From Utricularia gibba (lineage: Eukaryota > Streptophyta > Magnoliopsida > Lamiales > Lentibulariaceae), in the NCBI GenBank assembly GCA_002189035.1, contig CM007989.1, positions 558,001-622,000 on the forward strand: a DNA stretch of 64,000 bases, given 5' to 3'. A program made the position numbers and the translations under genes. Positions 32,852 through 58,167 of the stretch are shown piece by piece (the first letter of the stretch is position 1; each line of letters opens with the position of its first letter). Under the pieces are notes generated by a model. It was not told the origin of the DNA and did no database searches. It saw only the letters and a program-made list of their open reading frames with translations.

Positions 32852-35800
32852 TTAATCACAGCTTTCCCTGGTTTTCAAGGTAGATTCGATGAGCTTGACC
32901 TTTTTGCTGTTCTCACTATTTAAAAGAGAGAGCTTTTCGAGTGAAGATTTAAGCTGACGCATCTCATCCTCCGCCCGACTTCTTGCCGGGGATTGCAGCT
33001 GTGGGGTTTTTGATTTTCCCTGAGGAGAATGCTGGTGTTTCTTCAATCTTGCGTTCAGAGCCTCGATGGCTGAGTGCAAGGCACCCAACTCCATCCCGGT
33101 TAATCGATCTGCAGATAGATGCAACCCTTTGTGAAATGACTAGCCAAACCAGAATGCAAAAAGGTGCCTAGACAAACAATTACCGAGCTCGGATTTGAAA
33201 TCTCTCTCTGCTTTTGAAAGAGGTTTCTTGTGTAATCCAGGTACGTTCCTCAGCTTCATTAAGCGCTCTTCAAGAGCAGTGTGCCGCTTCAGGGCTTCAT
33301 CTATTCTATCTTCAATCTGTACATGTTTCTCTTCAACATCCAACAGCTTCTGCTGAATTGCTCGCATGCGAGATGCCTGATTCTCAACCATCTTCTTCAC
33401 CTGAGGCCCATGATGCTGGAGTTCAAAGTATACCTACAAGTGAAACAAATCATGCTATGCAGTCAGCACTTGAGTTACCTGAAGATACTAATTGACCATT
33501 ATCCATGGAGTTCAATCATCTTCTTCAGCCATACCTTGTATGCATAATCCACATAATTTTCATGGAGGAGTGTGAAGAACTGATTGAGCATAGACCTTCC
33601 TTCAATGGAGTCAGAACTTACGTTGCGTGAACTTGCTGCAGAGGCAGGCAAAAGAAGTGGCTTTGGCCCGACAAGGAGCTCTTTACTGATTATGGTGTAA
33701 GGAGTCTCCGTATCACCCATTTTCTCCCCATCTGAAAAGAGAGTTTCCCTCAGCTTATGAATATCAGAACGCAATACGCTCTCCATCTGTAATACCAGGC
33801 ACTCATTTGCAGATGTGATTCCCACAATCCAAGAATTCCCAAACGGGTCCAACAGAGGAAGACAACCACGAAGAGGGGATGGTACTGAAGCATCCCCAGT
33901 TCCGGTAGTAACAACAGGGAGAACTGATGGAGGCTTCATCCGCTCATTTTTCCTGCTTGTAATGCTGGTGAATGGGAGGAAATGCAAGATAATGGAATCT
34001 ATTCCCCCAGCATGAACACAAAGTACACGTTTAGGGTCAAGAGGATCTGCCATCATGACCAGGTTGGATGTAGGCTTCTTGGGCAGAGCTAAATCGACAA
34101 CAGCCAGCCTTAGCAATGGAGGGGGATGGCCCAACCAAGCAGCAGAGTCCTCAAGCTTCATCAATGGCTTCTCTTGTGGATAACAAGGCTCACAAATTGT
34201 AGCAGCACGGAGGATTTGATCTGTTGAGCTGAAGGAGGTTCTTGGTGCAGAACCAGAATTCCACACCGGGTGAACTTCATCAGCTAAAGCATCAATTTGC
34301 AATTGACCACCACCCCAAGCAGTAACAAGGATTGAGTCTTTTCCAACCAAATTGTAAAGGAAACTGACGGCATGACCCTCGAATACTGCCTTCTTGTCTC
34401 CATTGGTTTTCTTCATATCATGGCGTATATTAGACAAAGGTCCCTGTGATTGAGGATATTCACACTCTAAATAAGCAAACTTAATTACATGGTTGGAAGA
34501 AAATCACACCACATGCTTCAGAAGAGAACTAGTGCAGCACCTGCAACACTACTGATGATTCCGACAAAACAAAAGGCCGAGCCTTCACAGCCTTTGGTTT
34601 TCCAGTATCTCTAGGTTGTTGAACTAAATCTGGGAATGTAGCCTCCAGCCAAGATAATGCAGCTCGAGCATTCTTAACCGCTTTTGGATCAGAAGATTTC
34701 AGTCCAGTGGCTTGCGTGTCATGGTACAATTCCAAAATTGATTCCCACGTATATACACTGGGAAAACAAAGTATTTCAGAGTCAAACGAAACAAGATCAT
34801 CAAGAACAGCAGCAGCAACAGAAATTCTGAGTTCCAAAAATAGTGAAAGATAATCATGGGAAAAATACCTTCCAAAAGGAGCTACAGCACAAATTACGAA
34901 GCAAGATCCATCACTAAACAATATAAACACCTGAAAATTTAGAAGGGTCTCACATTATCATGTGTATAATAAGGGATGGTGATATGAACCAGGAATGAGG
35001 TTTCAGCTATCATCAATAAATGTCACATATCAGAAGCACCAGATCCGCATAAACTCCACAGCATAAGATTGATTATCTTTTGCAAGTTAAGCAAGATGGA
35101 CTATGTCTTACACTAAATCTATCCCACATGTGGTCTCCACCAAAGGAAAAATCAACTGGACATATGGCTGCTGCATGTGAAGATTTTCCCCCTTCTATAG
35201 GTTGCAGATAAAATTCTTGCTCTGGTTTCCCGAAGTCATTGGACAGATCAAAAATTCTGCAGAAAAACTTCCAGGGTCATTGGAGCTCTTTTGGCTTGGA
35301 AACTCACAGAATTAGGATCGTACAATAGACTTATTTCCAAAGAAAAGCATGCTATCACATCTAATTAGAGGTGCCAGCCATAACAAACAGCTTTTCCAAG
35401 GATATTTGCATTAAAATGAAATCTAGCGTAACAATGATCAGCGTTGATGCAATAGCAATCAAGCGAGCTAGAAGAATATAAGAGAAATGGATCTCGACAA
35501 ACAAATTATCCATTTCAGATATCAATGTAGCCAAGAAAAATGATGAGACAGGAAAAAAACTCACCTAAACACAGAATCAGATGACAGAATTCCCACGTGC
35601 ATGTTACTGTAAGGGTGCCAAGAAACCTGGAGTACTCTTAGTGAACTATTTCCGTTGAAATAGATCTCCGAACCAACTGACGAAGTACTGAAAAAGAAGT
35701 AAGGGTTAAGACAAAAAATTGTGAATGCTTATTTTAGAAAAAAAATGCTTTGATTTTTCCAAATGGAAGAAAACTATTTATACAAACAAAAGGTCCAGGA

Positions 35801-36636
35801 GTACTTAAGTGCACGGAAATATGTGAGCAAACACAAGATAAGGGTTTACCGACATATGATGGTATTTTCTTGCATTGAAGTGCGCCCATGGAGGTACATA
35901 AGCTGTACTCCCTTCACACCAACAAGCAACAAAACAGATCCATCTCTGTTTATGGAGATCTTATTGACCTCAAAATTCAATGGAACATCTGGTCGTAGTA
36001 ACTGTAACAAAAGATCACCCGTAAGCATAGAGGCCAATTCTCGGAGTTTACGCCCCTTCGGATCTATTAAAATAAAAGGACTGCTCGATTGTTGAGCCGG
36101 GTACCACCAAGTCAGGATACCACAACCCCAAAAAAAGGCACATAATCATTCAAAGTTTCACCTCAAGATCTTAAATTCAATGTCAAAAATTTATTTTTTA
36201 GTCCAGAATCGAGAGCGTGAGGTCAAGACACCGATCCCCATTCAAAATAAAACTAAAGCAAGTTCACAATAGCAGAAGTCGTGCGTTGAAAAAGCTCTCA
36301 CAAGTCTCCCGGAAGTGAGTTTTCACTCAGAGAACAACAAACCTTAGATGGCGAAGCAGCGATGACAGAAGAAGGGTCGGGCTCTCCTAGCCGAACCGAG
36401 ATCCGGTGTACGCACTCATCTTCATCATCCCAGATATAAACACGCGACGAAGCTTCATCCCAGGCAATGAGATTGGAAAGCGTTTCCTCCCCCGAGTCGG
36501 TAGCCTTTCCTGAAGAGAAAAGCGGGTGATTCTGCAGTGGAACCCACACCACCTCCCCTTTGGAAACTGAACTCGACGCCGTAGTCGCGGGAGCTCGCCG
36601 GCTCCCTGTTTCAGCAACATCCAAAGCAAACCTCAT
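32852..36636 (-). CDS. MOS7: Nuclear pore protein MOS7/NUP88 homologue, 802 aa
   Basis: Cytoplasmic-face nucleoporin; in Arabidopsis MOS7 controls nuclear retention of defence proteins and is essential. Nine exons: 36636-36343, 36001-35850, 35687-35565, 35256-35112, 34930-34869, 34757-34541, 34443-33535, 33433-33184 and 33108-32852. They total 803 codons, close to AtMOS7 (about 810). The N-terminal two thirds is a beta-propeller-like region (WVPLQNHPLFSS, KISINRDGSVLLLVG, VSWHPYSNMHVGILSSDSVFR, IFDLSND). The C-terminal ~220 residues are coiled coil (VENQASRMRAIQQKLLDVEE; RAEDEMRQLKSSLEKLSLL). The exon 1-2 joint reads SPSK|LLRPDVPLNF. All introns are GT-AG and in phase. Confidence 0.95.
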
Positions 36637-37000
36637 TTTTCCGACCTACCTTCGAATCCCACCCCCACCCCCGCACCACGCCAAGTCCCAAGGGCTGTGA
36701 ATGGAATTGCCGCTCTCCAGATTTCCTTTTTTTCTGCTTTTTTTAAGAATATTGAATTAAATTATATAATATATTTGAAGAAAAATACCAAATAAAATTT
36801 TTATTCATATAACAAATAATATACACATTTTTAATAAATCATCCATAACAAGCACAGGGTAGAGAAATGGGGGGAGCCAGCTTCTGAAGCCATTGTACAG
36901 AGATCCTTGAGTTCGGCCTCAGCAGCAAATTGAGAATCCTTGTTGCTGAAAGAATATTAACCTACAAGTCTTGGTTTGCATTGCACCGCCGGCAACCGCA

Positions 37001-40486: not shown

Positions 40487-42127
40487 TCACGAGTTGCGGT
40501 GATTCGGATCCGTCTGGTAGTAGACGATATCTCCGGTGGCAGAGACGAAGTGATCCCTGTTCAGGCTCTTGGCAATAGTTTTCAAAAGGTGAAAAGGAAT
40601 GGGATATGACTTCTTGGGTTCTCTGTAGTATTTCCCTAGAATCGGCTTCGCTGCTTCCGTCTGCAATTCACCCATAGCTCAGGCCAACCTAGTTTAGAAA
40701 CAGAAACAGAAAAAAAACTCACTGCTTGTTTCAGATGATAGTGTGGGATTTGTGGGAAGAGATGATGAATAACATGGGTTCCAATGTCATGGTGGACGTT
40801 GTTTATCCATCCATAGTCCCGATCCACCGTGGTAAGGCTTCCCCTTAGGTAGCTCCATTCCTAAACAACGCATAGATTGCAGTAACTCACGAGTTTCTTT
40901 GTAAAATACTGGATTTGCTCACCAACCTTGCCACGGTACCAAGGAAGCTTCTCTTCATCTCCATGGTGATGCAGATAGGTGACTAAGTCAAGCCACATCA
41001 CGAAAACCTGCACCCATATTTTTAAGTAGATGTTTATTATCGGTTTCTCAAGTTCAAAGAACCAAGGAAACCATGGTGGATTACCAGGTAAGGAACACCA
41101 TAGAGCTTGAGTAGTTGGAGAGGGCCTATAACGAACGTGAGCCCTGCCAGTGCCCCTGCCATTGCCGCCCAACAAATGCTTGATGTCATAACTTGTTTCT
41201 CTCATTTGGGGAACAAATCGCTGTCTGGATCAAAGTGTGAGCCGCTTTTCCCCGGGCTTCTGTTGACCTGAGGCGAGATGAGGGATGGAGACTAGGTAGA
41301 AAGGTTCCATGCAGGAGGTGTGTGCTCATAGCTTTGCTTAAGCGAGATGCTTACCAGATAAAAGGGATATGCCAGTAAAGGGAAGGGCAATGTGAACCTG
41401 AGTTTCTTAGTGCTATCACTTAAATTCTTGTACTCGTTCTCATTCAACTGCAAGTGATCCCATAGAAAACAACCGATCAAAATCAATCTTTTGCTGCTAG
41501 AAATTAAGGCCTCACCGGATGCCAGGATTCGTCGTTCTCGACGTCCATGATTGTGATGGTGATGCCTGTGGCTAATCCTCCTAGATGAGCACTCAATGTA
41601 ACAGTAGAGTGATTGAAAGAAAACCAAGAACATCATCACTTGATCCAAATACAGAAACATGCATACCAGCCATTGTAAGGCACCAGAATCGAAGAATGAA
41701 GCAAATGTCCCACGAAACTATTCAACGTGGGATTATCTGAAAAACTTCCATGGCCACTGAAAACGGAGGAGACCAATGAATAAAAATACAAATTCGAATT
41801 TCGAAAAGAACAGTCGCACCAGTCATGGCCGAGGACAAACATTGCCCAGAACATTGTCCCCTGCGCAAGCCAATACAGAGGCCAAAAGAGCCAGCTATCG
41901 AAATACCCCGCCGCGACCGCCAACCCAACGACCACGGCAACATCCCTCGCCACGTAACTCATCGATCGCCATGTTTCCTTCACCCAACACTCCTTCGGAA
42001 TCGCCGCCCTGATATCCGACATCTTGAACGACGGCGCTGCCCCGAGATCGAAAGCATTTTCGCTCTCGTTCGCCTCTCCTCCCATGGCACGCTCAAGTCT
42101 CGACGTTGGGGTGCCACTCTCCTGCAT
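40487..42127 (-). pseudogene. FAD3: Microsomal omega-3 fatty acid desaturase FAD3, disrupted
   Basis: Intact FAD3 desaturates linoleate to linolenate on ER phospholipids. Eight exons: 42127-41820 (308), 41756-41667 (90), 41580-41516 (65), 41447-41355 (93), 41267-41085 (183), 41007-40927 (81), 40860-40723 (138) and 40660-40487 (174). Internal exon sizes in the family are 90, 67, 93, 186, 81 and 138, so exon 3 is 2 bp short and exon 5 is 3 bp short. The exon 3 loss falls after HRHHHHNHG, where HVENDESW should follow, and leads to a TGA early in exon 4. Exon 5 has a TGA in the correct frame at 41204-41202 (DLFPK-stop-EKQVM). His box 1 (HDCGH, split by intron 1) and box 3 (HVIHH) are intact. Every splice site is intact. 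There is no plastid transit peptide, which favours FAD3 over FAD7/8. The state is either a recent null allele or consensus errors. Confidence 0.85.
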
Positions 42128-42615
42128 TGTTGCAAACTTGTATTTCTTTATTTCGATTAACTTAAATAAAAAAGACAAATTTGATCGTGACTTGATTTTT
42201 GATTTGTGCTTTAAATTTGATAAATGAATTACGATTAAACATTTTTAAATTACGAATTTTTATGATATAAAATAAATTAAATTTCTTTAAAATGAAAAAC
42301 AATGAATAATGACCTAATTCTAATTCAATCATGATTCAATTATATTTCAACCATAATTTAATATTTTATATATAATTATATTTTTTATTCAATCATAATT
42401 TAAACATTCGTATAAGTAATTTATACAAAATTCAATCTTATGATACAAAAATACATATAAAAATAATATGAAAATGACGTTGGAAAAGCAGCATTTTGGT
42501 TTGGATCCACCTTTACAAATGAAACGCTTCTTGGGTATATATACTGTCTGAGGGGCACACAGACAAGATTCTTGAACTCAATCCCTCGCACTTGCAGCAA
42601 TGGATGGTTGGCTGG
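42128..42615. other. FAD3 promoter (AT-rich) and 3' UTR of tomosyn-like gene
   Basis: 488 bp, very AT-rich at 42180-42470 with runs such as ATTCAATCATAATTTA repeated in diverged form near 42320-42400. The right end is the 3' UTR of the gene ending at 42616. Confidence 0.45.
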
Positions 42616-45600
42616 TTACAGATTCCACCATTTCCGCTTCTCCATTGTCTTGGCGAGCTCCTGAGCCATGGAGGCGAAGTTCTCCGCTCCGCTTTGTAGC
42701 TCCTCCGTTCTCCGGCTGAGTCTCTGCGGTGACACAGAAAGATGACTGATTGTTTGTTTATTAAAGGGGACTGGCTGGTTCGGAATGCTCCCTCCATGGA
42801 AAGCTCACAGCATCCTGGAGTTGTAGGATTTACCTCAAGCTTCTCCTGGCGCTCTATGAGTTTGTCCCTTGCCTGCGATGCTGCACTTGCTGCAACCTGA
42901 AAACCGGGAAGTTCCATGGATTATCTCTGTGCATGTACTTCATCAAAATAACGAAGTTGAGATGCTGGAGCTAGAGGAGGAAGCCGCTCACGTCTGGCTT
43001 GCGATACTTGGCGATGATTTCTTCTCGTGTTCGCATTCTTGGCTTATCATCACTAGAACCTCCTTCGAACAGCTTTCTCCTGTCGCCCTCATTGTCTGAA
43101 AACCAGAAAGGTATGAGGGTCTCAATGATGCTTGAAAAACCAGAGCAGGGAAAGGATTATGCAAGTTTTACCTTTGATTTCATAAGTAACTTTGGAGCTT
43201 ATGGGCTCTGGCTCATCGATCTCAATGTCAATGTCATCTGGAATAAGCGATTTCAGCAGCATATTCTTTTCTTGAGAACAGAAAACCAACAAGGAGAAGA
43301 GAAGGTAGATTACCTATTCCGAGTTCCGTCGCATCGAGATCATAAGGACTGGAGAATGGAAACCTCGAAAATATTCTTTCCAGATGCTCTGCTAACATCC
43401 CTTGAGCTTCATTGTACTCCATGCTATGACTTGATTTAGATGCCTTCAACCCCTTCTTTATCATGTTGTTGACAAATCCACTGATAGCACTCTGTCGGAG
43501 ATGACCATGATTAATGAAGAAGAAGGAAACCGCATAAACATAGGAGTGAGTTGAACCAACCTTGTGTTTTTTTGGGATTGTTTTGGTAGAGGCAAGGACC
43601 TTATCATGTAGGCAAGGAAGCGACTCAGGAATCCTGAAATGGTTGTTTCTAGTTAGGGCTCCGGATATGAGACAGGGAAAAGTAGGCCATGGCAGGGGAT
43701 TACCTGAGCTCATTTTCGGATGCTGAAAGCGACAGTACAGCAAATTCATTACCATTTACCTATAGAAAGAAGGCATACAGGAGTCAGTTGCAAATACAGC
43801 ATAAAGGTTGGCAGCTTAATGCATACTGAAGAGGAGGCAACAACCAGTGCGATCAAGCCCTTCTTTGAAGCACTCATTGTCCTGTCCATGTTGTTCTTGA
43901 AGTTCCATCTCAAAATTGACATCAATGAGGTGCAGCTCAACAGTTGGAACTCTGGAAGAGTCCTAAAAGAAACGCCCATGTTTTGCACACAAACCAGTGA
44001 GTGGAAAAGTGTGATTCTACAGATATTTCTGATGAAATGACTATTGTGTATTCTATATGCGAATGCAACAAAAATGCATGAATTTTTACCTGATGTCAAT
44101 TTCGCCCGTTTGATACAGGAGTACCAGTTCACAATTGTCTACACCTTTCTTGAGGACTGCTGTCCATGAACATGGCTTCTCAAGTTTCAACTCTCGGATG
44201 GGTACTTTATCGCCCTGAGTCAAAAAATACTTGCTAGGAATCAGCATCTGGGGTTAACAGCGGTTAGATGAAGGACTTCATTAAAACTAGCTAGAACCTG
44301 AAGCAATGACTTCAACGCATACAGGAAGACTACTTCCTCACAACAAAGTAAAATCTGAGAATCCAGTGTCACATCTCCAACTTCTGATGTACTGCTCTGG
44401 TTTGTATCATGAGAACCAGTCGGTTCTACACCTGAAACAGATCGAATATGATGTAAATACTGGAGAAGAAAATACAACCTGACCACGTGACAAAAGCAAT
44501 ATCAAAAACTTGCCTAAAAAATGAAAGTTTATCGCAACCAAGTTTTCTTTATGATGGGAACTAAGTACGTTGCCGCTGCTGGTTTCCATCAGAACCATGC
44601 ACGCATCTCTAGTACAAACAAGAGCAATCTCCCTAGCAGATTCATAAACAGAGGCATGATCTGAGCTATCTTCTGTTGTCCTTGGATTATCAGGAGAAGT
44701 TGTAACAGCAATAGAAAAGATAGGAGATGAGCCCGCGAAACTGTCCACTATAAGTAAAACTGATGGCGAACCAGTGTCCAAAACCATAACCTGTATCACA
44801 GTCCACGGTGTTGTGGGAAAATATAATTATTTGAGAGTTGACTGAGTGTATTTTATTTCAAAAGAACAAGTACCTTTCCACATTGAAATCCAGATAGAAG
44901 TTTTGCACAGGATTTCGTAAATCGGAGAGCACGTACAGGAGATTTAAATATGGAATATATTATAGAGCAATTGTTCCTCTCTTCAGGTTGACAATGGTGA
45001 ACTGCCAACAAACTACATTCAGGGTGTAGCATTTTAAGGAGATATGAAACCTTTAAGTACCAACACAATGGTTGATAAAACGGTGCTAGAAATAAAGAAA
45101 AGATACTGATTTCATGTCACCACATGAATAAAGCTAAGAGACATGACTCTACATGCCATTTGTTGCTATTCAACCGAGAAATGAACGCATACCATAATGC
45201 TTGGATTCTGTATGAACTGCAATTTTTTTGTGACTGGAATTCGGATCTAGAGAATAAAGAAAAATCTGTGCAGAACAATAAGTGATGTCGTTAGTCAGCT
45301 CATTAAGGATGACAACAGCAAAACACATCTCTCCTTACCAGACCAGATTCATTTCCAACAGCAAAAGTTAAGGTAGGAATAGATAAGTCCAATGCTGTCA
45401 CTGATGAACTTGAACCCTCAATTGGGACACTTGTAACCTGCCAACGCACAATACATGAACTATGAATGAACATGTGCTGCACAACAGGGAGAGGAGATAG
45501 CAACTTTCAGTAGTGACCTCCTGTCCAAATACAGAAACCAGGGACAACACTGGTACTGTGGCATCCCAGATTCGGATGGATCCATCTTCATACCCTCCAA

Positions 45601-48197
45601 TGTACATTCTTTCCACTAAGTTTCTTTCATCAGCACGTATTTGATGCATGACACCACCTGCAAAAGGCCACTTTGACTTCCCACCAGCTGCTGAATTATC
45701 AGATTGATGCGTTGTACGTGAAACTGCCTAATAAAACTGTAACTGATCATTGCAATGAATGAATAGATGAAGGAAGCATGTACCATGCAAGATCATTTTT
45801 GAGTACCTCAAGAATTTTCTTTTCTAAGTCAATGGTGTAGAGTTTTCCAATAGTCATGTATGGATCCACAGTGGGTATGATGGAGCAGTATTCAGACGAA
45901 TCTATCATGTGGTTTTGTCCTTTTTCAGACTTCATGACAGATAGGGAAGCATATTCAGAGAAGTGTAATTGTCCTGGATTGGTCAAGATAAAGAATGAAG
46001 TGTTACTGGAACTTCTGTTATCCTCTTCATAAGAATTTGATATTACACATAAGTCCGCAAAAGATCCATGAAGCCTAAGGTCAACTCGGTCAATGCACTT
46101 CAATTTTGCTAGACCAGATGACCAATCAAGATCAAGGATCTGCAAAGGAATGAATATAAAATGAGGATATGAAGCCTTGCTAGGAATCACAACTTCATAC
46201 TGACTAGATGTCCTCATACTTTATATAAACATAACGAGTACATTATTGTATACAAACACGTGTAACAGAAAGAAGTGAGCATGAGACATGTGTAAAGAAA
46301 AGAACGGACCGTCAGCACTTCCTCTGATCCGATGTCTTCACCACCATAGACAAAAAGTTGGCCTCCATTCCTACTTTGAGTTTTGTTAGAAGACCAGTGA
46401 AGTACAATGACTGGTAGTCTTCTGTCTCCTGATGACAGCTGAATCTTCACAACATCATTATGAATTTTTTGACTCGTATGACTTTTTACATCATCTGAAA
46501 CAGACAGGTCCCACAGTAAAATATCTCCATCCACGTAGCCAACAGCAAGAAATGATCCATCGACTGACACCCAACAGAGAGAGCTTATTTCCTTTTCCAT
46601 TTCTTCTTCATCTGATGCATTTTGGTTGGCATAGTTCTCGTTATTTGAAAAGCTCACAATCATGCTCTCCTTCAGCTCAAGATCCTTATTTCCCTTGACG
46701 TGGATGGCTCTATCTTCAGTGACATCCCACAAAACAATAAGACCATTTCCATATGCAATCAGTACCCTATACATATTTGGAGGTTATCGTCAATGACCTT
46801 TCTTTGCAATGAAATCATGTAAACTGCTAGCAACTGAAACAAAAAAAAAAAAAATGGCATCCAATAATATGCTTAATCCATCATCTTCTCATAAGAAAAT
46901 GAGAAGCAATCTCATGTAGAAGGTTTCTGGGGTAAATACATAGAATAAGGCCATTTAAACATGTACGAAACGGGATAAATGAACTTAGAAAATCAGAAGT
47001 AAAATTTACCTGTTTCCACTTGAAAAAGGCTGAGGTAGTACGCCAACTATGGACTGATGATCAGGCATCGGAAATCCAGTCCCCTCTACAAACCAAAGAT
47101 GAAGATGAAATAGATGAAAGTATACAATTCACCATCTCAAGAACACAGAGCAGTCAGACGAAACACAAACTTTGAGATGGGCAAGTGAAATCCTGATGTT
47201 ATAGATCAATCATGATGGACAGAAAAATAACCAGTATGTTAAACATGAATATCTACCAACAAATTTTTTCATTGTCAATTCAACCCTCACAGCCATGTTC
47301 CTTGCTGCATTTGACATCTCAAAGATCCTCGATCACTGATATCAAAGTGTATAGGTATTAAAGGTTTTTATCTAGAATGAACAGGTACCAGCAATAAGAT
47401 TTGGTGGCATATGGTATGGCAACTGAAGAATATTCCTTTGTTCGAAATCATACTTTAACACAGATAGAAATCCATACTCATCTCCTGCATACCTGAATGG
47501 TCCAAGAATATCAATGAACAAAATGTTCATCTGCGAGATGCTAGAATACATAACTTACAAATCTCTTACATATAATTGGTACCAGAGATAACAGAAAATG
47601 CAGTAATATTGGACTCCCACTGTATGGAACAAGCTATAGATCTCGTTGCCAGATCCCAAATCTGTCAAGGTTACATTCGTGTGATGAATGAAACATGGAA
47701 TGTTAGATAAATGAACATATCATGCAATTGTACCTGAATTTCATTTTCACTGGAGACACTCACTAGAAAACCTTGGTTTTGAAAAAACTGGGGAAAAATG
47801 AAAAAAAAAAACCAGCATAAATAGATAGAAACTATTTTTCGTGCATCAGAAATATAAATGAGATACAAACGCAAACCTGTAAGTTCTTGAATGGTAAGGC
47901 TTTGGGAGACATAAAAAGCCCTTCTATACTGTCTCCACCAACCACTTTAATTCTTCCATCTCTGCAACAAAATACAAATATGCTCGGATGTTGCGTTTGT
48001 CACTTGATCCAAAGTTTGGCAACAAATAGGGAAAATTACAGCAACAAGTAAGCAATAATAAACCTCAAAAGGGGTTTTTTGACTCACAGTGTCCCTACTG
48101 CTAAGAGGCGTTGGATAGAATCGAAAGCAAGGATTGACGCAGTCGCTGGTATGCCATAATGAACAGCAACAATGGGCACAGATTCTGATGATGCCAT
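42616..48197 (-). CDS. Tomosyn/Lgl-like WD40 protein with C-terminal R-SNARE-like motif, 1040 aa
   Basis: Regulator of SNARE-dependent secretion; tomosyn uses its C-terminal SNARE-like helix to bind syntaxin/SNAP partners. Twenty-three exons run from 48197-48088 to 42723-42616. The largest are 46766-46310, 46139-45807, 44790-44514 and 45727-45518. They sum to 1041 codons with every phase closing. The N-terminal half holds WD repeats (YGNGLIVLWDVTED, VGYVDGDILLWDLS, GGYEDGSIRIWDA). A conserved block RIPESLPCLHDKVLAS precedes the tail. The end RTEELQSGAENFASMAQELA followed by KTMEKRKWWNL is R-SNARE-like. The intron after exon 13 is a GC-AG intron (AG|GCAAGT at 44514/44513). The family has two members in Arabidopsis (TYN1/TYN2); I do not choose between them. 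Confidence 0.92.
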
Positions 48198-49827
48198 AAT
48201 TTAGTCAGATGAATACAGCTGCGAAAAATGGAAAAAGAGTTCATGGGTAAGAAAATTGGAAAACAGGAAACCGGATCGGGGAAAATTCCAGGAATTTCTT
48301 TCCTTGAATCGAACCTCATGAACTTAGTCCAAAAACAAGCTCCTCATTCCGCATCAAACTCAAAATTTCCATCTGGGATCGCAATTTCACGTACAACCCA
48401 ACCCAAAATGGAACATAAACAGATGATAAAAGCTCAATAAACTTTGAATTTTCAACAGAAGCTGTCTATTAAGGCCCAATCAAATCATTGACACTAAATC
48501 ATTTCCATTTTCCTCTCAATACACTAAATCATGGAGTGAATCCTAAGGCACCTGGATCAGAGGAGGAAAATGGGATAACAAAGAAACCCACCACTAGATG
48601 CCCAGCATATGTGAAACAGATTGAGAGAAAAAGATTGCTGACATTCACCTGGGAATAAACGAGAAGACGTGGCTTCCAAGGTTGATTGGGATTGGAGAGT
48701 AACAAGTCAAATCAAACTATTAAAAGCATCTAATGGTCAATTTTCGCAGTTATAGGTTCGACATTTTGCCTCTTCATTACGTACTCCTTTTCCCCCATGA
48801 TTCAGATCCTCTGGTCGGTGGAGAAGATCTTGATGCTCCAACGGTCGACACGGCACCAGTTCGAATCTCGAAGAGGACGCTTCAAAACAAAAAAAAAGGG
48901 AAAATTATTCTTTTTTATTTTCCATGGCACCACGTGGATACTGTTTGAATATAATTATTAATATTTAATTTACACTGGGCACGTGTTCATAAGCCCAACT
49001 GAAAAAAGGGCCCATCTACCTCTATCAGCGGCCCAGATCCACTGAAGAAATCTCTGTATATTATAATTTTAGGGTTGTGGTAGCAGGTTTTAAATACGAA
49101 TAAAACTAATTCATAAAAAATCAGTGTATTCTGAACCTAATAACCATATCACATATTGGTTAGGTATTCTTCTAATCTTATATAAAGGTTTTTCTTGAAT
49201 TGATAAAACGTAAAACTATAATAATTGGATATAAACTGATCTCAAATTGAAACTATAATAAGATTATGGTTTGAAGACTCTATTCTCATATATGAAAGTG
49301 GTATATAATCCATATAGTTATTTAAAAAAGTTTAATTTTTTAAATATATTAAAAATAATAGAAAATTGTTATTTTAATTATATTAAACAATCAAACAACT
49401 CAATTATATAATGTTTAATAATTTAAATTCATTTTTTAAAAGTATAATTGTTTTTTTAAAATACCTTTTGTGAAGACATTTTTATCAAATAATTTGTTTA
49501 CATGTTTTTTCAATAATTTTTTTGGGAATAATTACTTATTTTTAAGTAATTTATATATAAGTATTTATAATTGTTATTATGTTTTAAATATTATTTTATA
49601 CATAAATATTGAATAATAAATATTTATATACAAAAATATATACTTTTCGACAGTTTTTTTAAAAATATTGGATAAAAACATTTTATTTTAAAATATATAA
49701 TATATATTTTTATCTACAAAAACAATTAAAAATTCAAACAAGTGTGGATACCCTTTTTGAGTCTCGGTGTTCTCTGCCCCCTTCTGCCTCATGTATCAAT
49801 CCCGTAAATTTCAACAGAAAAGTCTCC
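48198..49827. other. Divergent region upstream of tomosyn-like (-) and clathrin heavy chain (+)
   Basis: Contains the tomosyn-like leader (48198 to about 48660). Site II motifs AAGCCCAAC, GGGCCCAT and CGGCCCAG lie near 48990-49035. A long AT-rich stretch runs from 49040 to 49740 with runs of A/T over 20 bases long. No coding sequence is supported, and no MITE-like terminal inverted repeats were recognised by eye. Confidence 0.5.
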
Positions 49828-49837
49828 TATATATAAG
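49828..49837 (+). promoter_or_regulatory. TATA box of the clathrin heavy chain gene
   Basis: TATATATAAG lies about 30 bp upstream of the start of the shared leader (49856) and 220 bp upstream of the ATG. It is the expected distance from a transcription start near 49860. Confidence 0.5.
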
Positions 49838-49855
49838 CGCTCATTTTTTTGCTAG

Positions 49856-49960
49856 TCGCATTTTGCACATTTTTTTCCCTCAGATCAAAATTTCTCTCCT
49901 CGTTTTCTCCAGATCTCTCGTCGGTTCCTGTTTCTAGGAGAAATCGAGGGTTTGTACTCT
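49856..49960 (+). repeat. Leader segment shared with the Yos1-like gene (copy 2)
   Basis: 105 bp that align with 28391-28485 read on the opposite strand. It begins right where transcription should start (about 25 bp after the TATA box) and ends nine bases past a possible splice donor (GAGG|GTTTGT). It therefore corresponds to the transcribed leader of clathrin heavy chain, not to coding sequence. Confidence 0.85.
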
Positions 49961-50048
49961 TCGCCTCATTCTCTGTTCATGCACTGATACTGTTTGCTGT
50001 CTAGATTCGTCTACAGTTTTCCAGATCCGGAGTTTTGAGTCGCTTACC

Positions 50049-53000
50049 ATGGCGGCCGCAAGCGCCCCGATCACTATGAAGGAAGCCCTCACGGTACGCT
50101 ACATTTTTTCGCATGATTTATTTTAATTTGATTCTTGTCTAGAAGTTGAGTTTTGCTGTTGCGATTATTCTCCATTGGCTCGCGATTTGATGTACGGACG
50201 GTATCTACAGTTTCTAAGAGGTTTTGGATTGGGCTTTTGTTGTTGAGTTGGATTAGTTTATGCACAGATCTGGTTGTTCTTTTTTATTTGATGGCGGTGA
50301 TGCACGAGTAGTTGCTGATCTTGGGTATTTTTTCCTGGTGATTGCAGCTGACTAGTATAGGAATCAATCCACAATTTATCACGTTTACAAATGTCACCAT
50401 GGAATCCGACAAATACATTTGTGTTCGTGAGACGGCTCCTGCAAATAGCGTTGTGATTATTGATATGAGCATGCCAATGCAGCCGTTGAGGCGACCAATT
50501 ACTGCGGATTCGGCTCTCATGAATCCAACTACAAAAGTTTTAGCATTAAAAGGTAAATTACATGTTAACGGGTTTGCAATATGATCAGAAGAGCACACTA
50601 TGATATTGTTCACCTTTTGGTGCCAAAAGACGTCAAAATTTCTTTCGCCCCTTCACTATTTACACTGAAGATGAGCTGTTTGTCTGTCATTGTATGGGAG
50701 CAGCACAACTCCCTGGAACGACTCAGGATCATTTGCAAATTTTCAATATTGAAGCTAAGACGAAGGTGAAATCTCATCAGATGCCTGAGCAGGTGCATTA
50801 TTTCTCCTTCTGAATTACTGGATTCTCATACTGCTCCTGTTTCTCGCCTGTAAATGTCATTTAGGCGAACTATGCTTTTGCAGGTTGTCTTTTGGAAGTG
50901 GATTTCACCTAAAATGCTAGGGATAGTTACACAAACTTCAGTTTATCATTGGGTTATTGAAGGTAGAGGAGTCTCAATCCTTTTATTTTACTATGTTCCG
51001 CCCTTTTTTGCATTCTTGTCGTGATATGTTTTGAAATTTTTTCATCAGGCGAGGCTGAGCCTGTGAAAATGTTTGAAAGGACTGCTAATTTGGCCAACAA
51101 CCAAATCATCAATTATAAATGTGATCCTTCTGAAAAGTGGTTGGTTTTGATCGGAATTGCACCTGGCTCACCCGAGGTTTGTGTTATGAACTATTTTATA
51201 ATGTCCTCCAAAAAATTCTGCAACAAGTGTCTCAGGAGAAGTACTTAGTTTTCTGCATATTTCAAATTAAACTTTTCCTTGCTGACTCTGGTATGCGATT
51301 GTTGGAAATACTTCAGCGGCCTCAGCTAGTCAAGGGAAATATGCAACTTTTTTCTGTGGATCAGCAGCGTAGTCAAGCACTTGAAGCCCATGCTGCGTCA
51401 TTTGCTTCCTTTAGGGTATATATTACTGTTTTTTCATTTGGCATTTATTAGCTGGGTTTCTACTAATCTATATATTTTCCTGTACTTGCATCTCAAGCAG
51501 GTTGCGGGAAATGATAAGGATTCTATTCTTATATCTTTTGCAACTAAAACATCTAATGCTGGTCAAACGCTATCGAAGTTGCATGTCATCGAGCTTGGTG
51601 CCCAACCAGGTTTTAATTTTTTTTTCTCTCTCTTAGCATGCTTCAGCAGGGCTAATCAGCGGAGCTTTTGTAGGTAAACCAGCATTCACAAAAAAGCAAG
51701 CAGACCTTTTCTTCCCTCCTGATTTTGCTGATGATTTTCCAGTGGCCATGCAGGTAGCACCCTTGTTTTTCAGAGGCTTTCCTTGTTGTATTTCCAATAA
51801 TGTATTTTCATATCTACCCCTTTTCTCGCAGATATCCCATAAATATGGCCTCATTTATGTCATTACAAAGTTAGGCCTTCTTTTTGTGTATGATCTGGAA
51901 ACTGCCACAGCTGTTTACAGAAATAGAATCAGCCCAGATCCTATTTTCCTTACATCGGAAGCATCTGATTTGGGGGGATTCTATGCTATTAATAGGAGAG
52001 GGCAGGTTCTACATGCCAATGTAAATGAATCAACTGTTGTGCCTTTTGTCAGTGGTCAGGTGGGTTTTCTTTTCCACATGCATAGTATTTTTGTATAAAT
52101 TTGGATGTTGTTAATTATCATTAAATTTCAACAGTTAAATAACCTGGAGCTTGCTGTTAATCTTGCAAGAAGAGGAAACCTCCCCGGAGCAGAAAATCTG
52201 GTCAGTCAATTTTTCACCTTTGATGCTTTCGAATAAGCGCTTAGCATTGCCCTTATGAAGTTGAATGTTATAAGAGCTTACTTTTTGTTTTTTTGCTTTC
52301 AATAGGTCGTCCAGCGTTTTCAAGAATTGTTTGCTCAAACCAAGTACAAGGAGGCTGCAGAGCTCGCTGCTGAATCTCCTCAAGGAATTCTTAGGACAAT
52401 GGAGACAATTTCCAAGTTCCAGGTGAAGTTGTTACTTCGAAGAAGTTATCCTTGTTTCCAGGAAACCATTTGGTTGGACTAGTTGCCATAGGCTGTTTAG
52501 TTCTCTTGGTGATGTGGGAGCTCAGTTATTTGTTTATGTTTTCAGGAAACCGTTTGGTTTGACTAGTTGCAATAATCTCTTTAGACCTCAGTACGGTGGA
52601 GCTGAGATATTTTCTTATGTTTTCAGAGTGTGCCTGTTCAAGCTGGGCAAACACCGCCATTGCTGCAGTATTTTGGGACACTCTTAACAAAGGGGAAACT
52701 GAATGCCTACGAGTCCTTGGAGTTATCTCGTATTGTTGTCAACCAGAACAAGAAAAATTTACTGGAGAACTGGTTGGCTGAAGACAAGCTGGAATGCAGT
52801 GAAGAGCTTGGGGATCTCGTAAAGGTACTTCAAATGTACTTTCTGCAGTAGATTCCTTGACTTTTGAACACTCACAGTTTCATTGATAGACCATCTTTTC
52901 ACTTATTTTTAGACGGTTGACAATGACCTTGCCCTTAAAATATATATTAAAGCCAGAGCAACACCAAAGGTCGTAGCAGCTTTTGCTGAGCGCCGGGAGT

Positions 53001-56000
53001 TCGACAAGATCTTAATATACTCAAAGCAGGTTACACCATAGTATTGCTTCAGCACTCTTGTTTGATCAGAAGATCTCAAGGGACCTGGTTCTTGTTTCTG
53101 TATTTCTATCACCGATGGAGTTCTCTGCATGAAGATGATTGATTTTATTATGACAGGTTGGATACTCACCTGACTATTTGTTCCTTCTGCAAACGATTCT
53201 CCGGTCAGATCCTACGGTATGCTGCAATGCAAGAGCTGATGACCCTCTTGCATGTTTATCCTTGAGCAGAACGTTTGTATTTTCATCCTCGCCACCAATT
53301 TATGTATAATGTATGCAGGGAGCTGTAAATTTTGCTCTTATGATGTCCCAAATGGAAGGTGGCTGCCCTGTTGATTACAATACCATAACTGATCTTTTTC
53401 TTCAGGTGTGAATGTGTTTTTTTTATGAACCCTTATTTTTGCTTCATTTGTACACCTTTTTTAAAGGCCCTTAGTGTAATGAAATATTAAGTTGTGTATT
53501 AATTAAAAACTTTATTCAGAGGAACATGATCCGTGAGGCAACTGCATTTCTCTTGGATGTTCTGAAGCCTAATCTGCCGGAGCATGCGTTCCTGCAGACA
53601 AAGGTGAATCATCACTGCTTTTCTATTTGACTCTTTGTGAAGATTCGTTGTTGTTTCCTTGATTCATGTTAGGTTCCTATTTCAGGTTCTGGAGATCAAT
53701 CTTGTGACATTTCCTAATGTTGCGGATGCTATCTTGGCTAATGGTATGTTTAGTCACTATGATAGGCCACGCATAGCACAGCTTTGTGAGAAAGCTGGAT
53801 TGTATGTTCGAGCTCTTCAGGTTTAGAAATCAGTACAATGGGCTATTTTTGTTGCTGTGATTTGGTGATTTTCTTTCCACTGAACCTTAATTCGATGGTT
53901 GCAGCATTACTCTGAGTTGTCAGATATCAAGCGTGTTATCGTGAATACTCATGCAATTGAACCTCAGGTGATTCAGTTAATAACGCTTCTGCTATGTTTT
54001 CCAGTCTGTGCCACTGATATGCATTTTTTTCTTCATCGCAGGCTCTTGTTGAGTTCTTTGGAACATTGTCCAAAGAATGGGCACTCGAGTGTATGAAGGA
54101 TCTGTTATTGGTTAATTTGAGGGAAATCTTCAGATTATCGTTCAGGTGGGAATGTGATTCGTGTTGGATATGGTTAACTTATTTCCCCTTGAGGGAAGCC
54201 TACTGCTATTATGTATTCTGAATGTGTATTGAGGAAATCTAAATCTTTTGCTTAAGTTGTTTGTTCATCACTCTAGTCCATGCTTACTAATTGCCAAGCA
54301 TTGAGCAGGTTGCAAAAGAATATTGTGAACAATTGGGAGTTGAAGCATGCATTAAACTGTTTGAGCAGTTCAAGTCATATGAAGGATTGTATTTCTTCCT
54401 GGGATCGTATTTGAGTTCAAGGTCGCCTATTTTTCAAAGCATGACTGTTTGTTCACTTTTTGTACTTTAAGTTTTATGATTGACTTGGTTCCATTTTTTT
54501 GGCAGTGAGGACCCTGAGATTCACTTCAAATACATTGAATGTGCTGCAAAGACTGGGCAAATCAAAGAGGTTGAACGTGTTACAAGGGAATCGAATTTCT
54601 ATGACCCTGATAAAACCAAGAACTTTTTGATGGAAGCAAAACTTCCTGATGCACGGCCATTGATCAATGTTTGTGATCGCTTTAACTTTGTGCCTGACCT
54701 GACACACTACTTGTACTCCAACAACATGCTTCGCTACATTGAAGGCTATGTGCAGAAAGTACGGTTTCTTTGTGACTCAATATTTCTTGAGATGGCGTCA
54801 TCCTTTCATGTTCTGAAGCCTTGATTTTATGATAGGTTAATCCTGGAATGCACCCTTAGTTGTAGGACAGCTCCTGGACGATGAGTGCCCTGAAGACTTC
54901 ATCAAGGGCCTCATCCTTTCTGTACGCTCTCTGCTTCCTGTTGAGCCCCTGGTTGAGGAATGCGAAAAAAGGTAATTTCATGTATTCTGTTTGAGAGTCT
55001 TTTAAAAAGATTTATGTGTTTATATATGGTTTTAATTTTAGGAATCGTCTTCGTCTGCTCACTCAATTTTTGGAGCACCTTGTGAGTGAGGGTAGCCAAG
55101 ATGTTCATGTTCACAACGCTTTGGGCAAGATCATAATAGACAGCAACAATAATCCGGAGCACTTCTTAACAACTAACCCATATTATGATTCTCGTGTGGT
55201 GGGTAAATATTGTGAGAAGCGTGATCCTACACTTGCTGTTGTGGCATATCGGAGAGGACAGTGTGATGATGAACTTATTAATGTCACAACTAAAAACTCA
55301 CTATTCAAGCTTCAAGCCAGGTTAGTATACCTGCTATGCCTTTACTACTTTTCATACACTGTTGGTCTATTGTGGCTCATATATGTCATTGCCATTTCAG
55401 GTATGTGGTTGAAAGAATGGATGCTGATCTCTGGGCTAAGGTCCTTGACCCAGAAAATGAATTCAGAAGGTTGCTCATTGATCAAGTTGTATCCACTGCC
55501 TTGCCAGAGAGCAAAAGTCCTGAGCAAGTTTCTGCAGCTGTTAAGGCCTTCATGACTGCTGATCTTCCACATGAACTCATTGAGTTGCTCGAAAAGATTG
55601 TGCTTCAAAACTCTGCTTTCAGTGGAAACTTCAACCTCCAAAACCTACTCATCTTAACTGCAATCAAGGCAGATCCTTCGAGGGTCATGGACTATGTTAA
55701 CAGGCTTGATAACTTTGATGGCCCAGCTGTTGGAGAGGTGGCTGTGGAAGCTCAATTGTACGAGGAAGCATATGCCATTTTCAAAAAGTTCAATCTGAAC
55801 GTTCAGGCTGTTAATGTATTGCTGGATAATATTCGAGACATTAATAGAGCAGTGGAATTTGCATTTAGAGTGGAGGAGGATGCTGTCTGGAGTCAGGTGG
55901 CTAAAGCTCAACTCAGGGAAGGACTTGTTAGTGATGCAATTGAATCGTTTATTCGTGCTGATGATGCAACTCAATTCCTGGAAGTCATCAAAGCCGCAGA

Positions 56001-58167
56001 AGATGGAGATGCCTATCATGATCTTGTCAAGTATCTTCTCATGGTCAGACAAAAATCGAAGGAACCTAAAGTTGACAGCGAGCTCATATATGCTTATGCT
56101 AAGATCGAACGATTGGGTGACATTGAAGAGTTCATTCTAATGCCAAATGTTGCAAATTTGCCTAGTGTTGGTGATCGTTTGTATGATGAGGCCTTATATG
56201 AAGCTGCAAAGATTATTTTTGCATTTATATCGAATTGGGGCAAATTGGCTAGCACTCTTGTCAAGTTGAAGCAATTTCAGGGTGCAGTGGATGCTGCACG
56301 GAAAGCAAATAGTGCTAAAACATGGAAGGAGGTCTGCTTTGCATGTGTTGATGCTGAAGAGTTCCGTTTGGCTCAGATCTGTGGTCTCAACATCATTGTA
56401 CAGGTATTGTACCCTAAAGTACAACCAAGGTTCATTCGTTTTTCTCTTCTATGCAGGCTAGTCGTTATTTGGGCTATGGTTCAATTTTATGTACATTTTC
56501 TGACATTTTTTAGGTTGACGACTTGGAAGAGGTTAGTGAATATTATCAGAACAGAGGATGCTTCAATGAGCTTATTTCACTGATGGAGAGTGGTTTGGGA
56601 CTGGAACGAGCACATATGGGAATATTTACAGAATTAGGTGTTCTTTATGCTATATACCGCCATGAGAAGCTTATGGAGCATATCAAATTGTTTGCAACTC
56701 GACTTAATATTCCAAAGTTGATTAGAACTTGTGATGAGCAGCAGCACTGGCAAGAGTTAACATATTTGTACATTCAGTATGATGAGTTTGATAATGCTGC
56801 TACAACCGTCATGAATCATTCTCCTGAAGCTTGGGATCACATGCAATTCAAGGACATCATTGTCAAAGTTGCCAATGTAGAGTTGTATTACAAGGCTGTG
56901 CACTTCTATCTGCAAGAACATCCAGATATCATTAACGATGTTCTGAATGTCCTTGCTCTCCGTTTGGATCACACCCGTGTTGTTGACATAATGAGAAAGG
57001 TTCATGACTACAGCCTTCAAAGCTTCGCTCATTTTGTTATGAAATTTTTCTGCTCAACTTATCATAAACTTTTTATGCTGTCATCTTAGGCTGGCCATCT
57101 GCGACTCATTAAGCCTTACATGGTAGCTGTTCAGAGTAATAATGTTTCAGCTGTCAATGAAGCACTCAATGAGATCTATGTTGAAGAGGAGGATTATGAT
57201 AAGCTACGAGAATCAATTGATTTGCATGATAACTTTGATCAGATTGGTTTAGCTCAGAAGGTGATTCTGACTTCTTTTTTTTTCTTCAGTTTTTTCACCT
57301 TTGTCTCAATGCTTATATGGATGTATGCTCCTCTAAATAGATTGAGAAACATGAGCTGATTGAGATGAGGCGTGTTGCGGCTTACATCTACAAAAAAGCC
57401 GGGAGGTGGAAGCAGTCCATTGCCTTGTCAAAGAAAGACAATTTGTACAAGGATGCAATGGAAACAGCTTCACAATCTGGTGATCGTGAACTTGCTGAGG
57501 AGTTGCTTGCTTATTTCATCGACCAGGTAAAAGAAGTGCAGCCCACTGACGTTTTTAACCGTGTTATTATGAGCTTTGGTATATCGACAATTGGATTTCT
57601 GATTTTGCATGTGTATGTAGGGCAAGAAGGAATGCTTCACATCATGCCTGTTTGTTTGCTACGATTTAATCCGGCCAGATGTGGCACTTGAACTTGCCTG
57701 GATGAATAACATGATAGACTTCGCATTCCCTTACATCCTGCAGGTAATTAACTAACTATCAGCTCTTGTCCTCCAAGTCCTTTTTGGTTTAATCATTTTG
57801 GTTTGATGGCACTTGTGAAATCACTTTGCTTCAGTTTATTCGTGAGTACACCGGCAAGGTTGATGAGCTAATAAAAGACAAGATTGAGGCTGCAAATGAA
57901 GTGAAGGCCAAGGAGACCGAAGAAAAAGACATTCTAAAGCAACAGGTATGAACAAGTCTCTTCAAGGAGTAACAACAACTTATCCATGGCCTTAACCTCC
58001 CCTCTGTGTTGTCGATGCAGAACATGTACGCCCAGCTGCTCCCTCTGGCGCTTCCCGCACCACCGATGCCTGGCATGGGCGGCGGCTTTGCTGTCCCTCC
58101 TCCGATGGGCGGCATGGGAATGCCTCCGATGCCACCTTTCGGCATGCCGCCGATGGCTCCCTATTGA
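50049..58167 (+). CDS. CHC1: Clathrin heavy chain, 1700 aa, with two 1-bp deletions
   Basis: Scaffold of clathrin coats in endocytosis and trans-Golgi traffic. Thirty exons run from 50049-50093 and 50348-50552 to 57835-57945 and 58021-58167. The largest are 55401-56403, 56514-56999 and 55042-55320. The N-terminal beta-propeller starts [20 protein letters not shown]. Heavy-chain repeats fill residues about 500-1550. The C-terminus is Met/Gly/Pro-rich ([18 protein letters not shown]). Exon 19 (54042-54145) is 104 bp instead of 105, with one G missing from the run at 54121-54123 ([11 protein letters not shown]). Exon 22 (54836-54971) is 136 instead of 137, with one A missing at 54847-54848 ([12 protein letters not shown]). 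With both restored the total is 1701 codons, close to Arabidopsis CHC1/CHC2 (1705 aa). CHC1 versus CHC2 is not resolved. Confidence 0.93.

Follow-up and report, generated by a model that had tools for sequence, protein, structure and literature searches.

A third FAD7/FAD8-clade desaturase gene of Utricularia gibba lacks a transit peptide and is interrupted by short deletions in the assembly

The window analysed here is a 64,000-nucleotide stretch of the Utricularia gibba assembly (bases 558001-622000 of contig C1) and contains an omega-3 desaturase gene, hereafter the window gene, which as assembled cannot encode a full desaturase. Sequence comparison, partly with uncurated references, supports its assignment as a third member of the plastid-type FAD7/FAD8 clade, located at the ancestral FAD7/8 position. 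We favor the view that it is a real pseudogene of recent origin, most likely an ordinary one. The original prediction had described an inactivated FAD3 at this locus; the absence of a full reading frame was borne out, but the FAD3 name is unsupported, because the tree and the gene order place the gene with FAD7/8.

Structure and lesions of the window gene

The window gene consists of eight exons (Table 1) and matches in layout the eight-exon plan of FAD7/FAD8, with its core of 90-67-93-186-81-138 bp. Its seven introns run from GT to AG, thus all 14 splice sites are intact, as first reported, and exon 1 stops inside the first histidine box (GHD/CGH). The frame break announced for exon 3 was also found: the second histidine box is altered to HRHHHHNHG, a 2-bp deletion lies behind it (about 41543-41545), and past this point the translation reaches a TGA early in exon 4. 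The two His residues that replace Thr and Gln in this box, noted before and seen again here, cannot be reached by fewer than three base substitutions, unless 3-bp indels compensated each other, and thus the change in box 2 is more than a 2-bp loss. The Trp that opens exon 5 is Val, again as previously indicated.

The shortened exon 5 and its in-frame TGA were likewise confirmed, but not their explanation by one extra and one missing A. In the alignment with both paralogues, L041 and L042, two deletions suffice (TTC--CCCAAATGAGAGAAACAA-GTT), one of 2 bp and one of 1 bp (net -3), about 17 nt apart and with PNER out of frame between them; a lost codon need not be assumed. A rescue by shifted splice sites was considered and rejected by inspection, since no GT/AG restores the frame without loss of HVENDESW. 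In the assembly, frame-breaking lesions lie within coding sequence that is otherwise recognisable, as in a pseudogene.

Table 1. Features of the window gene and its surroundings (positions within the window).
Feature	Position	Strand	Description
Exon 1	41820..42127	-	308 bp; start ATG, context AACAATG; no transit peptide
Exon 2	41667..41756	-	90 bp; remainder of histidine box 1 (CGHGSF)
Exon 3	41516..41580	-	65 bp; 67 in both paralogues L041 and L042
Exon 4	41355..41447	-	93 bp, the family length
Exon 5	41085..41267	-	183 bp; 186 in the intact paralogue L041
In-frame TGA	41202..41204	-	within the frameshifted part of exon 5
Exon 6	40927..41007	-	81 bp
Exon 7	40723..40860	-	138 bp; third histidine box HVIHH
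Exon 8	40487..40660	-	174 bp; terminal TGA
AT-rich spacer	42128..42490		GC 8-22%; 11-bp-spaced TTCAATCATAA-like repeats; no transit-peptide coding sequence
Tomosyn-like neighbour	42616..50000	-	WD40 match only; last codon near 42616, upstream end approximate
Clathrin heavy chain neighbour	50082..57950	+	extent approximate; about 5 kb with conserved exons in frame
NUP88-like neighbour	32852..36645	-	weak Pfam Nup88 match; limits approximate

Real lesions or consensus errors

The breaks might be uncorrected deletions of a long-read assembly, the gene being intact in the plant and encoding an FAD7/8-clade omega-3 desaturase without transit peptide. We regard this as possible, if rather doubtful. 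The U. gibba genome has been described in papers as a PacBio assembly, and five control frameshifts were found in otherwise sound genes, each of them readable as a single base dropped from a C/G run. Two of the five single-exon cytosolic HSC70 genes, L061 (C451:3343400-3345150) and L062 (C496:432800-434550), are one base short at C-runs and otherwise perfect, and these are residual consensus errors. The KCS gene L066 (C4:3824100-3825200) is one base short in GGCATGGGTGCAGC, probably a G4 read as G3; it reads GGCATGGGTGC, and the protein motif calls for one G more. The sphingolipid DES-like desaturase gene L008 (C98:2255112-2258573) has its frame broken at a G-run (TTGGGGAGGG), which is probably another consensus error; this frameshift and that of the KCS gene were judged from the motif, with no intact DNA copy alongside. 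L042 (C412:1636900-1640700) lacks a base, perhaps a G, where exon 5 begins (TGGGTAGGAGTCC); this gap in TGGGTAGG can be read in the same manner, and L042 is a probable further case. Two BiP-like HSP70 copies with equal scores (C241:12834-18511 and C304:2235549-2238296), representing a duplicated or unmerged segment, both switch frame at one shared place.

No such breaks were seen in L041, in two FAD2 genes or in three sphingolipid-desaturase-like genes of 477-478 aa. The histones showed no frameshift, nor did about 5 kb of the clathrin heavy chain gene, which lies 8-16 kb off on the same contig.

The lesions of the window gene bear a different signature. Two of them remove 2 bp and the third removes 1 bp, and only the first of exon 5 touches a C-run; the 2-bp loss of exon 3 and the single-base loss of exon 5 lie outside C/G runs. 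Three breaks in 1.13 kb are also above the background of about 0.09 per kb of control coding DNA, a rough tally of about 4 events in 47 kb. At this rate, at least three breaks would arise with a probability of about 1e-4; with the rate raised to an upper value of 0.21 per kb, it becomes 2e-3. Both figures are optimistic because the gene was chosen for looking odd and errors may cluster locally. Moreover, the changes of Thr and Gln to His and of Trp to Val are substitutions. At about 188 columns without variation among the eight remaining proteins of the comparison, the window gene departs 12 times, and the corresponding counts are two for L041 and one for L042; the FAD3 references, on similar branches, depart 7-8 times, and thus the excess is mild after allowing for branch length. 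Indel errors do not produce substitutions such as those in the box and in the invariant columns.

Some observations speak against a pseudogene. Outside the lesions the window gene looks well kept, all three short deletions could fall in simple sequence (a C-run, an A-run and an AC repeat), and the strong past constraint and the intact splice sites suit a gene that still works. The dN/dS of its branch is 0.087, not above that of the other copies, with dS saturated; no gene-wide relaxation was detected by this measure, to which a recent relaxation would be invisible at such saturation. Given this low value, any loss of function would be recent, and thus the recent inactivation initially proposed is compatible with both the splice sites and the dN/dS. 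We infer that the lesions are present in the plant rather than only in the consensus. The warning about consensus errors was justified in that the assembly does contain them, but they do not look like the breaks of this gene.

Assignment to the FAD7/FAD8 clade

In a small maximum-likelihood tree of nine rows a branch with 99/96 support separates the window gene and FAD7/8 from the FAD3 references. This placement should be taken as a lead, since the FAD3, FAD7 and FAD8 references (Arabidopsis, soybean, tobacco, perilla and sesame) are not a curated set. The rows closest to the window gene are the sesame FAD7 reference, L042 and L041. The window protein shares 77% identity with L041 and with the sesame FAD7 reference, and 68-70% with four FAD3 references. 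Among 14 diagnostic columns it is FAD7/8-like in 6 and FAD3-like in 4, the former including WHP (WVP in FAD3) and the acidic residue of DPDSDLF (NPYS in FAD3).

The gene order points in the same direction. The window gene is adjoined upstream by a gene that we take to be a tomosyn (its C-terminal sequence is ...KTMEKRKWWNL), with the clathrin heavy chain gene farther out and a NUP88-like gene downstream. The published Arabidopsis numbers are AT5G05580 for FAD8, AT5G05680 for NUP88, AT3G11170 for FAD7 and AT3G11130 for clathrin heavy chain 1, and tomosyn is AT5G05570 (PMC8964185), whereas FAD3 (AT2G29980) lies away from the FAD7/FAD8 neighbours. With its tomosyn, NUP88 and clathrin neighbours, the window gene thus corresponds in position to FAD7/FAD8. 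L041 and L042, examined over 10 kb per side, have no flanking gene in common with the window. A duplicate segment on contig C317 has kept clathrin, and no FAD gene was found there within 30 kb.

The window gene thus has in common with Arabidopsis FAD7 and FAD8 the clade, the gene neighbourhood and histidine boxes 1 and 3, but differs from them in its altered box 2, its two frame-breaking regions and the absence of a transit peptide, which is present in L041 and L042 (MASWVLS...). The window protein has instead 25 residues, 5 of them acidic, ahead of the conserved FDLGA motif, and upstream of its ATG there is an AT-rich spacer (Table 1). This spacer is weakly similar (70-80%, on both strands) to about six dispersed intergenic loci. 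Replacement of the transit peptide by a transposon was considered and is not claimed, as neither element ends nor a target duplication could be drawn.

That the window gene is a true FAD3, i.e., the ER omega-3 desaturase, now dead, appears very unlikely. It shares with Arabidopsis FAD3 the exon plan and the short N-terminus without transit peptide, its length is near that of FAD3, and the four FAD3-like columns agree with this idea. The clade, the neighbours and the six FAD7/8-like columns nevertheless contradict it, and the C-terminus is not lysine-rich and has no KxKxx, although ER retrieval signals are generally known to vary among species.

Other omega-3 desaturase genes in the assembly

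The assembly (100.09 Mb, 516 contigs) was searched with the window protein, an uncurated FAD3 protein and DNA queries. It contains two further FAD7/8 genes of full length that encode transit peptides: L041, which is intact, and L042, with the short exon 5 described above. A degenerate 3' fragment of an FAD7/8 gene, L043 (C1:5972400-5976400), comprises exons 6-8 only. Near L041 there are coding remnants of a Ty3/gypsy-like retroelement (L045, C1:4349450-4359400), and contig C1 itself is exactly 8,500,000 bases long and looks cut rather than naturally ended.

The second intact FAD3 that the original prediction proposed to look for was not found: these queries revealed no FAD3-type gene and no intact allele elsewhere in the assembly, and apart from the FAD7/8 loci the two proteins matched just two FAD2 genes and some weakly related desaturases. 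As the assembly has gaps and the search covered its accessible stretches, the missing FAD3 is an absence from the assembly and not a proof of loss. No relatives were found in viral contigs, and among the papers searched none linked Utricularia with FAD3. The lowering of seed 18:3 expected from a FAD3 null is not supported for this locus, given its FAD7/8 clade and neighbourhood and the presence of L041 and L042 with their transit peptides.

Proposed history and implications

We propose that a FAD7/8-clade gene would first have lost its transit peptide and would then have been inactivated recently through short deletions, one of 2 bp in exon 3, immediately behind the degraded histidine box 2, and two in exon 5 (2 bp and 1 bp). 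Translation of an ordinary mRNA would stop early in exon 4, so that the protein would lack histidine box 3, and the transcript would probably be removed by nonsense-mediated decay. The activity of the di-iron desaturases requires histidine box 3. Because translation would end before this box, no active enzyme of this type should be possible, and plastid omega-3 desaturation would be left to L041 and L042.

That the window gene is instead a retargeted, non-plastid omega-3 desaturase that replaced FAD3, either still active by an unseen route or only recently lost, is extremely improbable: the coding constraint, the good ATG context without transit peptide and the lack of FAD3 in the assembly are in agreement with it, but the constraint may date from before the loss of the transit peptide, the gene as assembled carries the lesions, and both localisation and activity are purely putative.

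Both kinds of damage have been described in cotton, in two separate genes. The pseudogene FAD3-2.2 is, like the window gene, a duplicated omega-3 FAD with a frameshift and stops, and FAD7/8-3 has, like the window gene, the Thr of histidine box 2 replaced, which has been interpreted as a sign of altered activity (PMC4245742). In U. gibba the two are found together in a single FAD7/8-clade gene.

Seen as the pseudogene of a desaturase duplicate, the window gene is ordinary. It illustrates how real lesions may be separated from the errors of this particular assembly, which are readable as single-base losses in C/G runs. The lack of a recognisable ER omega-3 desaturase in the assembly leads, in addition, to a prediction on 18:3 in the phosphatidylcholine and the storage oil of bladderworts. 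In Utricularia turions, 18:2 amounts to 20-34% of dry weight and 18:3 only to 0.7-1.9% (PMC11085451); this fits a weak extraplastidic omega-3 desaturation, although many other causes are possible and U. gibba is not among the species measured. We put forward as a speculation, rather unlikely on present evidence, that Utricularia lost FAD3 altogether and that extraplastidic omega-3 desaturation passed to a FAD7/8 gene without transit peptide, itself later lost or still intact behind consensus errors. If this were true, the turion storage oil, rich in 18:2 and poor in 18:3, would be a consequence of lacking extraplastidic omega-3 desaturation throughout the lineage.
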